This document shows, one piece after another, positions 384-4,691 of a stretch of 64,000 bases of DNA (within the stretch, counting starts at the first letter, position 1; each line of letters starts with the position of its first letter). The stretch is from Vandammella animalimorsus. GTDB lineage: Bacteria; Pseudomonadota; Gammaproteobacteria; Burkholderiales; Burkholderiaceae_C. Below the pieces are notes generated by a model, which made no database searches, was not told the DNA's origin, and saw nothing but the letters and a program-made list of their open reading frames with translations. The translations under genes and the position numbers were made by a program. The stretch lies in NCBI RefSeq assembly GCF_002285265.1, contig NZ_NSJB01000002.1:186001-250000 (forward strand). The letters run 5' to 3'.

Positions 384-1529
384 TCAGGCCTGCGCCTCTT
401 GCTGGGTGGCGCAGGCCGGGCAGCTGATCTGGCCGGTGCGCTTGTGGTAGAGCACGGTCACGCCGGCGGCCACTTCGGCGCCGCACTGGTCGCACAGCGT
501 GGCCTCGGAGAGCGTCTCGTGGTCAAAGCCCTCGATCGAGAAGATCTGGTCGCCGATGCGCTTGGGCCACTCCTTGTCCTTGACGATGTCCCAGCGGTAG
601 TACTCCTCAAAGCGCGTCCAGCGCTCGATCTGTGACTCGCTCAGGCCGTGCTCGCGCAGGGTTTCGACCATCAGACGCTGGCGGTGGTCGAACAGCGAGT
701 GCGGGATGATCATCCAGTGGTGCATGTTGCGCGGGTTCTCGCCCCAATAGACCTTCTGGCCGGTCATCAGCTGCTGGATGAAGCTGTATTGCTTGCTGGC
801 GGCGCGGTCCATGGTCACGCCGTGAAAGAACGGCGAGAGCAGCGGATCGGCATAGACCTTGGCATAGAAGGCGTCGAAGATCTTGCGCGCCAGCTTGCCG
901 TTGTCCAGCTCCTGCCACAGCTGCGGGTCGGTCGGCGGCGGGGTGACCAGCTCGGGCAAGTCCTTGTAGTCCAGGTTGAAGGGGCCGCGCACCTCGAACT
1001 CCAGGCCGAACTCGGCGCCGGGCGCAAAGTAATCGGGCACCACATCGCCCTGCTGCAGCACCCAGCGCGCCTCGGGCACGGGCGTTTGCTGCGGGTCGCT
1101 GGTGAGCATGAGCACCGGCTCGTCCTCCGGCGCCGCGCCATTGACCAGGCGCAGGCTTTGGCCGGCGCGGTAGTCCAGCCCCGTCATGGGCTCGAACTGG
1201 ATGCGCAGCGAGCCCGTGCCGTGGCCATCGACCTCCACCAGCATGCAGCGCGTGACCATGTCCTGCGCCTGCTTGCGCTCGAGCTGCATGGAGCCGGTGG
1301 CCACGCACTTGCAGGGCAGGAAGTAGCCGCGCTCACGCAGGCGGTCGGGCAGGCCGCGCTGGGCTTTCTCGGGGATCTCCCCGGTCACGCAGCGCGTCAT
1401 GCAGGTGTGGCAGGAGCCACCCTTGCAGGAAAACGGCGTGGCAATGCCAACGCGCAGCATGGCGTCGAGCACGGTTTCATGCTCGAAAGGGCGGATGGTC
1501 TGGCCCTCGAATTGGATTTCTATGGTCAT
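384..1529 (-). CDS. Ferredoxin / truncated globin / zinc-ribbon fusion protein
   Basis: A 381-residue multidomain protein. Residues 1-90 are a plant-type [2Fe-2S] ferredoxin with cysteines C35, C40, C43 and C73 in the usual CX4CX2C...C spacing. Residues 95-190 resemble the FAD-binding barrel of ferredoxin reductases (YRAGQSLRLV), but no NAD-binding half follows. Residues 210-320 look like a truncated haemoglobin, with H270, H271 and H277 as candidate haem ligands in NMHHWMIIPH. Residues 346-373 hold a CxxC...CxxC zinc ribbon. The start at MTIEIQF was chosen because the ferredoxin fold begins there; an upstream ATG at 1607 would add a 26-residue extension with no ferredoxin character. The layout suggests electron delivery to haem, for example in NO or O2 chemistry. 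That role is inference. The gene appears to be single. Confidence 0.85.
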   Translation of the reverse strand: MTIEIQFEGQTIRPFEHETVLDAMLRVGIATPFSCKGGSCHTCMTRCVTGEIPEKAQRGLPDRLRERGYFLPCKCVATGSMQLERKQAQDMVTRCMLVEVDGHGTGSLRIQFEPMTGLDYRAGQSLRLVNGAAPEDEPVLMLTSDPQQTPVPEARWVLQQGDVVPDYFAPGAEFGLEFEVRGPFNLDYKDLPELVTPPPTDPQLWQELDNGKLARKIFDAFYAKVYADPLLSPFFHGVTMDRAASKQYSFIQQLMTGQKVYWGENPRNMHHWMIIPHSLFDHRQRLMVETLREHGLSESQIERWTRFEEYYRWDIVKDKEWPKRIGDQIFSIEGFDHETLSEATLCDQCGAEVAAGVTVLYHKRTGQISCPACATQQEAQA

Positions 1530-2454: not shown

Positions 2455-3936
2455 TCAATCGGCCGCCATGGCAGAGGCCGGCAAAATCAGTCTGGCCTGC
2501 GCGCCCGGCCCGTCTGCGGCATTGGCAATCTCGATCTCGCCCTGGTGGATGCGCATGACTTCGCGCACGAAGGCCAGGCCCAGGCCGGTGCTTTTCTGCC
2601 CCGTGTCCGGGCGCGGCAGCGAATAAAACCGCTCGAACAAATGCCCCAGCGCGTAGTCGGGGATGCCCGCGCCCTGGTCGCGCACGGTGATGGCCTGCAT
2701 GCGCGGCTGCGGCTGTGGCTGACCGGGCCCAGGCGGCCAGGGCTCGATGGCGATGGCGATGCGCCCGCCGGGCGGGGAGAACGCCAGCGCGTTGTCCAGC
2801 ACATTGCCCAGCGCCTGCTGCAGCAGAAACTGATCGCCATGCACCGCCAGCGCCTGCGCCGCGCCCTGGCAATGCACGTGCACATCCAGCCCCTTGTGCT
2901 GCAGGCGCGTGGCGCGCGAGGCCACGACCTGCTGCACCCATTGGCGCGTGGGCACGGTGCGGGCGCTGGCCGGGGCCTGCAACTGCTCCACGCGGGCCAG
3001 CGCCAGCAGGCGGTCGATGATGCGCTGCAGGCGCTCGGACTGCTCCAGGATGGTCTGGGCAAACTGGCGCTGGTCAGGCTCCGGCGCGCCCGGCAGCAGC
3101 TCAGCGGCGGCGCGAATGGCCGTCAGCGGGCTTTTCATCTCGTGCGTCAGGCTTTGCACGTAGTGCTCCACATACTGCTTGCCATCGAGCTTGTGGCGCA
3201 TGTGTTCCAGCGCCCGGGCCAGCTCCGTCAGATGTCGCCCGCCCGAGGTGGGCAGCTGGGCGCGCTGGCCTTCGGCCACGCGGCGCGCGTAGTCGCGCAG
3301 CCGGTGGATGGAGTGCGACAGCCAGGCCGTGAACAGCACGCCGATCGCCCCCGAGGCCAGCAGCAGCAGCAGGCCCAGCTGGCGCACCCGCTGGCGAGCG
3401 TTGTGCGCGTACTGGGCCACGCTGTGCGAGGGCTTACCCAGGCTGAGCACCCCCACCAGGTTGCCCTGGTCGATGATGGGCGCGGCCACGTACATGACGG
3501 AGCTGTTTTCATCGCCGGGCCTGTCGCGCGTGCTGCGCGCGCCGTAGTGCCCGCGCAGCGCCAGGTACACGTCGCGCCAGCGGCTGAAGTCGCGCCCCAC
3601 GGCTTCGGACTCTGAGTCGAACAGCACGATGCCGCGCGTGTCCGTGATGTACAGGCGCAGGTCCATGTGGTTCTTGAGGTTGCCGTGGATGTTGGCCTCA
3701 GGCTGGCGCGACTTGGCAGCCTGCAGCGCGCGCTGCAGCTGCTCGTGCTGCAGGCGGCCCTGCGCCAGCTGCGGCGCGAGGATTTCGGCCAATAGATTGG
3801 CGCTGTCCACCAGCGTATCCTCCGTGCCCTGGCGCACGCCGGGCTCGACCTCGCGGCTGAAAAAGCCCAGGATGAACCAGGCCGCCAGGCCGACGATCAG
3901 GAAGTAGCCGATGAACAGCCGGATCGCAAAGCTCAT
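2455..3936 (-). CDS. creC: Sensor histidine kinase CreC
   Basis: A 493-residue inner-membrane kinase. An N-terminal transmembrane helix (about 5-26) is followed by a long periplasmic sensor region, a second helix (about 188-208), a HAMP-like linker, and the kinase core. The phosphorylated histidine is H265 in LTHEMKSPLTAIR. The ATP site shows DNALAF, DQGAGIPD and STGLGLAFV. The opening residues and sensor region match CreC of the CreBC (carbon-source responsive) system. The start overlaps the creB stop by 4 bp (ATGA), so the two are translated together. In enterobacteria CreC responds to carbon source and cell-wall stress; the signal here is not known. Confidence 0.9.
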   Translation of the reverse strand: MSFAIRLFIGYFLIVGLAAWFILGFFSREVEPGVRQGTEDTLVDSANLLAEILAPQLAQGRLQHEQLQRALQAAKSRQPEANIHGNLKNHMDLRLYITDTRGIVLFDSESEAVGRDFSRWRDVYLALRGHYGARSTRDRPGDENSSVMYVAAPIIDQGNLVGVLSLGKPSHSVAQYAHNARQRVRQLGLLLLLASGAIGVLFTAWLSHSIHRLRDYARRVAEGQRAQLPTSGGRHLTELARALEHMRHKLDGKQYVEHYVQSLTHEMKSPLTAIRAAAELLPGAPEPDQRQFAQTILEQSERLQRIIDRLLALARVEQLQAPASARTVPTRQWVQQVVASRATRLQHKGLDVHVHCQGAAQALAVHGDQFLLQQALGNVLDNALAFSPPGGRIAIAIEPWPPGPGQPQPQPRMQAITVRDQGAGIPDYALGHLFERFYSLPRPDTGQKSTGLGLAFVREVMRIHQGEIEIANAADGPGAQARLILPASAMAAD

Positions 3937-4691
3937 GCGCGCAGGCTGTAGCCCAGGCCACGGTGGGTTTCGATGGGGTCGGCGTCGGCCTGCACGGCGC
4001 GCAGCTTGGCGCGCAGCGTCTTGATGTGGGCATCGACGGTGCGCTCCAGGCTTTCCTGCGCATCGCTCCAGACCTGCTCCATCAGCACGGCGCGGCTGAA
4101 CACGCGCCCGGGCCGGGCCAGCAGCAGGGCCAGCAGGCGGTATTCATAGCGCGTCAGGCTCAGCCACTGGCCATGAAAGGCAATGCGCAGCCCAGGCTCG
4201 TCGTGCAGGAATGGCCCGCGCGCCTGGCCCTGCTGGCCCTGATGCGCTGCGTCCCCAGCCTGGGACTGCTGCGGCTGGGCCGCCGCGCCCGCGCCGCCCT
4301 TGCGCGTGCGCCGCAGGATGGCGCGCACCCGCGAGGCCACCTCGCGCGGGCTGAAGGGCTTGGAGACGTAATCATCCGCGCCGATCTCCAGGCCCACGAT
4401 GCGATCGACCTCATCGCTGCGCGCCGTGAGAAACAGCACCGGCAGCTCGCCATGCTGGCGGATCGTGCGGCACAGGTCAAAGCCGCTCATGTCCGGCAGG
4501 CCCACGTCCAGCACTGCCAGCGCAAACGGTGGCGGCTGTGACGGTTGTGGCGCAGTCCCCAGTTGCAAGGCCTGCAGCGCCGCCGCGCCCAGCGCCACCC
4601 ACTCGGTGGCAAAGCCCTCGGCCTGCAGCGCATAGGCCAGCGTCTGCGCAATGGCCGGCTCGTCCTCCACGATCAGAATGCGCTCGCTCAT
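3933..4691 (-). CDS. creB: Response regulator CreB (OmpR family)
   Basis: A 252-residue regulator. The receiver domain has the acidic pair E9-D10, the phospho-acceptor D62 in VLDVGLPDMSG, and the conserved lysine in DDYVSKPFS. The C-terminal winged helix (LTRYEYRLLALLLARPGRVFSR ... VDAHIKTLRAKL) binds DNA. The linker between domains is unusually long and rich in Gln, Ala and Gly, about 35 residues from GGAGAAAQ onward. It lies just upstream of creC in one operon and is the partner of that kinase. In E. coli CreB activates creD and other genes through short direct repeats; no such target was recognised in the window. Confidence 0.9.
   Translation of the reverse strand: MSERILIVEDEPAIAQTLAYALQAEGFATEWVALGAAALQALQLGTAPQPSQPPPFALAVLDVGLPDMSGFDLCRTIRQHGELPVLFLTARSDEVDRIVGLEIGADDYVSKPFSPREVASRVRAILRRTRKGGAGAAAQPQQSQAGDAAHQGQQGQARGPFLHDEPGLRIAFHGQWLSLTRYEYRLLALLLARPGRVFSRAVLMEQVWSDAQESLERTVDAHIKTLRAKLRAVQADADPIETHRGLGYSLRA

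Follow-up and report, generated by a model that had tools for sequence, protein, structure and literature searches.

A Vandammella animalimorsus gene joining a [2Fe-2S] ferredoxin, a relic reductase barrel, a truncated globin and a zinc ribbon in one protein

In flavohaemoglobin (Hmp), a globin and its FNR-type electron supply are carried on one polypeptide chain; the globin is N-terminal and of the 3/3 type, functional FAD and NAD domains accompany it, and the chain contains neither a ferredoxin nor a zinc ribbon. Raphidophyte algae have a nitrate reductase-truncated haemoglobin, in which a truncated globin is fused to an electron-transfer protein (PMC3820574); reductase-globin fusions as such are already known. 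Reductases of the BenC, MmoC and PRK05713 type carry Fer2, FAD and NAD domains together, while group 1 truncated haemoglobins, such as HbN of M. tuberculosis and the Tetrahymena protein, combine a 2/2 fold bearing a histidine at F8 with a distal network of TyrB10 and GlnE11. ThnY of Sphingomonas, a ferredoxin-reductase-like iron-sulfur protein similar to BenC, is impaired in its use of NAD(P)H, scarcely taking up electrons from pyridine nucleotides, and serves as a regulator (PMC3771892); it keeps its FAD, contains no globin, and has a LysR activator as its partner.

Operons that pair a small GTPase with Roadblock proteins have been described in other contexts. In the Group 3 MglA systems of beta- and gamma-Proteobacteria, an MglA protein with a DAR-type G5 motif and no NKxD motif accompanies a receiver/winged-helix protein and one or two MglB proteins (Wuichet and Sogaard-Andersen, PMC4316618); the text of that 2014 survey mentions neither globin nor ferredoxin. 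Among the GTPase/Roadblock conservons of actinobacteria, some possess a haem protein (the P450 CvnE) as an accessory (PMC13343842).

The gene considered here occupies positions 384 to 1529, on the minus strand, of a window (the whole 64,000-nucleotide stretch of DNA that was analysed) from Vandammella animalimorsus, whose genome (G000) comprises 3.10 Mb in 22 contigs. Like Hmp, its family unites globin and FNR-type electron supply in one chain, and relatives of complete form possess both FAD and NAD domains; unlike Hmp, the globin is C-terminal and truncated (2/2), a [2Fe-2S] domain stands at the N-terminus, and the window form is without working FAD and NAD parts. A flavohaemoglobin-type globin (PF00042) was matched neither in the window protein nor in the window genome. 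The Fer2-FAD-NAD order of the complete relatives is that of the BenC, MmoC and PRK05713-type reductases (NF004317, E 2e-50), and all three domains are present in two of them (G231 and G900) and not in the window form, which is reduced; the family differs further from those reductases in its fusion to a globin and ribbon, and in scores that fall far below the curated cut-offs. With HbN and the Tetrahymena protein the globin shares its fold, F8 His, B10 Tyr and E11 Gln, and it differs from them in an HHWM motif, in having Ala, Val or Leu at E7, and in being embedded within a multidomain protein. The algal fusion is distinguished by its nitrate reductase parts, its eukaryotic origin, and its lack of a ferredoxin or ribbon. 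An initial sequence-only reading of the locus had cited no named family with this order of parts, and none was found in Pfam, in NCBIfam, or in the open literature, where no paper (two globin surveys included) names a ferredoxin-truncated globin fusion or its domain order; as this covers mainly freely available papers, the negative is weak evidence.

Domain composition of the window protein

The reading frame encodes 381 amino acids followed by a stop, with no internal stop codons, and near-identical copies of the gene are found in Vandammella animalimorsus NML 03-0146 and in a Comamonadaceae MAG. A Pfam scan of the protein returned matches above the curated cut-offs to Fer2 (PF00111, residues 8-78, E 4e-14) and Bac_globin (PF01152, residues 215-305, E 5e-10), and none to FAD_binding_6 (PF00970) or NAD_binding_1 (PF00175); NCBIfam yielded only sub-threshold matches of the N-terminal part to ferredoxins and [2Fe-2S] reductases, and a sequence search of the PDB recovered plant-type ferredoxins together with group 1 truncated haemoglobins. 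Because the same domain order is kept in at least seven other genomes, at 37-99% identity, a chance fusion or an assembly error is excluded. The sequence-only reading had proposed a ferredoxin, a partial barrel, a truncated globin and a zinc ribbon within one open reading frame, an assignment now confirmed by Pfam, PDB profiles and alignments.

The plant-type [2Fe-2S] ferredoxin domain (residues 1-86; positions 1272..1529, minus strand) also matches PDB ferredoxins (E 3e-10), and the four cysteines that had been put forward as its ligands (C35, C40, C43 and C73, in the arrangement CX4CX2C...C) are invariant across a ten-row alignment. At the other end of the chain, a predicted zinc ribbon (residues 340-376; 402..512, minus strand) contains the expected CxxC...CxxC pattern, with C346, C349, C370 and C373 invariant in every aligned relative, as is His362; the corresponding part of a 182-residue model displays pLDDT values of about 80-91.

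The region that follows the ferredoxin (residues 88-190; 960..1268, minus strand) has no single-sequence Pfam match. When six such barrels were compared, profile to profile, with four intact FAD domains of relatives (hhalign), the match reached a probability of 96% and an E value of 2.5e-9, which identifies the region as a real, if degenerate, ferredoxin-reductase barrel. The proposal that the barrel lacks its NAD-binding half is borne out by this comparison and by the alignments, with one refinement: the RxYS motif for FAD binding is likewise absent from the window protein, and since that motif has been lost, the barrel is probably not a flavin domain.

The C-terminal part of the protein is, by sequence profile and modelled fold, a group 1 truncated globin (residues 201-318; 576..929, minus strand). 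A profile of the C-terminal half matched the group 1 truncated haemoglobins 3aq5 (Tetrahymena, E 2.8e-14) and 1idr (HbN, E 8e-11). An AF2 model of residues 200-381 was of modest quality (pLDDT 72, pTM 0.56), and a fold search with it returned the same truncated globins (1dly, 1dlw, 3aq5 and 1idr), with a best TM to target of 0.68-0.75; matches of the model to RAS/RAF1 folds had E values of about 0.3, which is chance level, and were ignored. A model of the whole protein, made from three alignment rows (mean pLDDT 45), was left out of the structural reading.

The positions expected to line a haem pocket are fitting ones. The putative proximal ligand His270 (F8; 720..722, minus strand), which is the first histidine of NMHHWM, aligns with His73 of 3aq5; the distal residues Tyr222 (B10; 864..866, minus strand) and Gln247 (E11; 789..791, minus strand) align with Tyr25 and Gln50, respectively, and in the profile alignment Ala243 occupies the E7 position of Gln46. 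Across the ten-row alignment His270, His271, Trp272 and Tyr222 do not vary; Gln247 is replaced, by valine, in the row of G231 and is glutamine in the other nine. Several of these are positions that structural biologists have singled out, as indicated by PDB titles that describe the Tetrahymena mutants Y25F, Q46E and Q50E and HbN mutants of TyrB10 and GlnE11. The assignment of residues 210-320 to a globin fold with a haem pocket thus withstood three checks, on its sequence profile, its modelled fold and the residues of its pocket.

Taken as a whole, the window protein is a bacterial protein, predicted to bind haem, in which an iron-sulfur electron carrier is joined to a small globin. The earlier suggestion of a haem protein fed with electrons through its own ferredoxin therefore stands as regards the union of a haem-type globin with a [2Fe-2S] domain (on sequence, fold and pocket), and electrons may pass within it from ferredoxin to haem.

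Other truncated globins were noted in passing. The window genome encodes one in addition to the fusion. Proteins of about 300 residues with two different globins per chain, an N-terminal PF00042 domain and a C-terminal PF01152 domain, were seen at L063:1156-2073 (-), L065:1006-1944 (+), L075, L087 and L095 (the first two scanned with Pfam, the others read alike), and many genomes of one group within the phylum, f247 (for example, G988, G1097 and G1150), carry several truncated-globin genes, often in tandem.

Relatives and graded loss of the reductase

Relatives were sought in samples of 300 genomes at the level of the order and 301 at the level of the family, using GTDB groups, which differ from those of NCBI. 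Those aligning over the full length, at 37-55% identity, came from five genomes of the same family (G439, G501, G523, G318 and G420) and one of another family (G058); the same searches also gave a shorter form (G474), a copy split over two contigs (G308) and an enlarged form (G231). A profile of the globin and ribbon added four more within the class (G900, G787, G955 and G714), and a phylum-level scan with that profile found no further relatives. The fusion is present in 9 of the 301 family genomes and was absent from the plasmids searched.

These proteins form a graded series. The complete form, Fer2-FAD-NAD-globin-ribbon in a single chain of about 510-530 residues, is found in G231, G900, G787 and G955, all outside the family; Fer2, FAD_binding_6, NAD_binding_1 and Bac_globin were all matched in the two that were scanned with Pfam (G231 and G900), and the reductases of G787 and G955 were recognized as complete, with R-x-Y-S motifs, by frame reading and alignment. 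A second form, to which the window protein belongs along with that of G481 (same genus) and those of G439, G501, G523, G318, G420 and G058, retains a relic of the barrel: in the window protein and those of its Comamonadaceae kin, the FAD-domain barrel survives as a stretch of about 100 residues, with neither RxYS nor an NAD domain. The barrel has been lost as well in G474, and in G714 both ferredoxin and reductase are gone, leaving only globin and ribbon, the part that is never lost across the series. A lone globin and zinc ribbon, lacking ferredoxin and reductase, was observed at L117:8925-9560 (-) within a GTPase/Roadblock operon.

Since a leftover barrel is easier to explain by loss than by gain, the complete form is taken to be ancestral, and the alignments show the window protein to be a reduced version of what appears to be a counterpart of flavohaemoglobin, an NADH:[2Fe-2S]:truncated-globin protein that is self-sufficient. 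The idea that an iron-sulfur centre had been adopted here in place of FAD and NADH domains does not hold for the original design, as relatives carry the iron-sulfur, FAD, NADH and globin domains in one chain. In a tree of the globin and ribbon, the Comamonadaceae members form one clade (support 98/97). That the NAD domain was lost twice independently, in G058 and in the Comamonadaceae, was suggested by one tree and not by the other (clade support 53/34), and we claim at least one loss.

The reduced gene is intact and under purifying selection. Domain-wise dN/dS values were 0.02-0.05 between the window and G481 and 0.13-0.30, highest in the barrel, between G523 and G318, and remained below 0.31 in every domain of the close pairs. 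These low values across domains indicate that the gene is in use, and the ferredoxin, globin and ribbon of the window form are kept and constrained.

Linkage to a GTPase/Roadblock cassette

Within the window, the gene is flanked on one side by what we take to be an open reading frame resembling the end of a hydantoinase, and on the other by a presumed membrane protein and a CreBC-like two-component pair. That pair (2455-4691, minus strand) resembles CreB/CreC, and nothing ties it to the fusion. A palindrome upstream of the gene (TGCAACGAATTGTTGCA), considered as a promoter element, is not kept in the nearly identical locus L001 and was dropped.

The fusion family co-occurs with a conserved cassette, which it adjoins in six other genomes (G231, G900, G787, G714, G501 and G308). 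The cassette comprises an MglA-like GTPase, a fusion of an ABC ATPase to a dual-specificity phosphatase (ABC_tran and DSP), a 134-residue protein, a Robl_LC7 protein, and a protein of about 375 residues with weak receiver-like and helix-turn-helix matches, not all of which were seen at each locus. In G000 the cassette is intact on contig C18, a different contig from that of the fusion; its GTPase, ATPase/phosphatase, 134-residue and Roadblock genes are ordered as in G501, whose fusion gene comes after the cassette.

The 134-residue protein was found in all 15 fusion genomes and was absent from two genomes of the same genus that lack the fusion. It occurs in 22 of the 301 family genomes, including all nine with the fusion (hypergeometric p = 1e-11, shared ancestry ignored), and in 5 of the 229 genomes of a class sample; in the 13 of those 22 family genomes that lack the fusion, its gene is mostly accompanied by that of the ATPase/phosphatase. 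Homologues of the GTPase also occur in fusion-less genomes, including some of the same genus, and the GTPase was therefore set aside as a specific partner in favour of the 134-residue protein as the better marker. Because both proteins also occur without the fusion, the link between fusion and cassette is one-directional.

In alignment, the cassette GTPases display a G5-type motif of the form D-A/G-R (DPR in one) and lack NKxD; the GTPase on C18 has the DAR-type G5 motif and no NKxD, as in the Group 3 MglA proteins. A Robl_LC7 protein is present in the G000 cassette, along with a short protein of weak winged-helix similarity, of which a longer version is found in G231, G787 and G714. The cassette resembles the Group 3 MglA systems and the conservons in pairing a GTPase with Roadblock proteins, and differs from both in adding the ATPase/phosphatase fusion and the 134-residue protein.

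These two additions were also viewed individually. The ABC-type ATPase and dual-specificity phosphatase form a single protein that keeps HCxxGxGRTG (L054:4750-6084 (+); L146:8822-10144 (-)) and is nearly always encoded beside the 134-residue protein, in Comamonadaceae and beyond. The latter (L054:6109-6510 (+); L146:8289-8687 (-)) carries the pattern IPECVAAGYVDLxSGMLL...TVDSHP, and its copies across the class are 61-76% identical to that of G231; it had no significant match in Pfam or NCBIfam, and its C-terminal half is faintly suggestive of Roadblock proteins (hhalign 76%).

Possible roles of the fusion

The reading that we place first, at a little under an even chance, is that the protein supplies a gas or redox input to the cassette, along a path from an outside reductase through the [2Fe-2S] centre, the haem and the zinc ribbon to a GTPase/Roadblock/phosphatase output. 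An outside NAD(P)H:ferredoxin reductase would load the [2Fe-2S] centre, which would keep the haem ferrous; the haem would bind O2 or NO by means of its Tyr(B10)/Gln(E11) pocket, and its ligand and redox state would be passed, probably through the ribbon, to the cassette. Should NO be dioxygenated at all, this same haem would be the site of turnover, and the complete relatives would act in the same manner with their own NADH supply. The fuller proposition, of a haem-globin gas/redox sensor that feeds a Ras-like GTPase/Roadblock cassette and that descends from a self-reducing NADH:[2Fe-2S]:FAD:truncated-globin protein whose reductase half was lost, is more tentative.

The persistence of globin and ribbon through the loss of reductase and ferredoxin is more in keeping with a sensor or effector than with a turnover enzyme. 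This persistence, the GTPase/Roadblock operon of the relatives, and the two precedents (CvnE and ThnY) slightly favour signalling over NO dioxygenation. Counting against a sensor, the fusion gene of the window genome is not next to the cassette, the link between fusion and cassette runs one way, and the Tyr/Gln pocket is also the classical pocket of NO dioxygenases.

That the protein is an NO dioxygenase is possible, if on the doubtful side. Its ferrous-oxy haem would convert NO to nitrate, and the ferredoxin would re-reduce the ferric haem with electrons from a separate cellular reductase, since the built-in one has been lost. The group 1 fold and its TyrB10/GlnE11 pocket are consistent with such chemistry, as are the complete NADH reductase carried in cis by relatives, the failure to find a PF00042 globin in the window genome, and reports that re-reduction is the limiting step of globin NO dioxygenation in cells (PMC2323109; PMC3820574). 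However, an enzyme that depends on fast re-reduction would hardly be expected to lose its reductase in most members and, in G714, its ferredoxin too; this reading accounts for neither the zinc ribbon nor the GTPase/Roadblock linkage; a second truncated globin exists in the window genome; and no NO-related genes were seen beside the fusion in a general look at its neighbours. Given the linkage to the small-GTPase/Roadblock cassette, signalling is no less probable a role than the plain NO or O2 handling that the sequence-only reading had envisaged; sensing and NO dioxygenation are not exclusive.

It is unlikely that the ferredoxin feeds haem-bound O2, peroxide or another small oxidised substrate in a haem oxygenase, peroxidase or nitrite-type reaction, as a biosynthetic or repair step under control of the cassette, much as ferredoxin reductases of the oxygenase type serve their oxygenases: although the nearest matches to the reductase part are oxygenase reductases and proteins related to them (PRK05713, MmoC and BenC), the pockets of truncated globins are small, and no substrate-pathway genes recur beside the fusion. 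That the gene is a decaying leftover, a once-useful reductase-globin drifting to loss, is highly improbable in spite of the stepwise domain loss and a scattered distribution (9 of the 301 genomes of the family), being contradicted by purifying selection (most close pairs have dN/dS of 0.02-0.30 in each domain), by invariant ligands, and by a frame kept open across genera at 37-55% identity.

What is new in these observations is that relatives explain the partial barrel, and that the family co-occurs with the GTPase/Roadblock cassette. For most truncated globins no electron donor is known; in this family a [2Fe-2S] ferredoxin, joined in certain species by an entire NADH reductase, shares the globin's chain and appears to be wired to it. 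Natural proteins with a whole, a half or no reductase would make the step from ferredoxin to haem directly testable, and association with the fusion gives the little-understood GTPase/Roadblock/phosphatase cassettes a possible input signal, which may be O2, NO or redox state.
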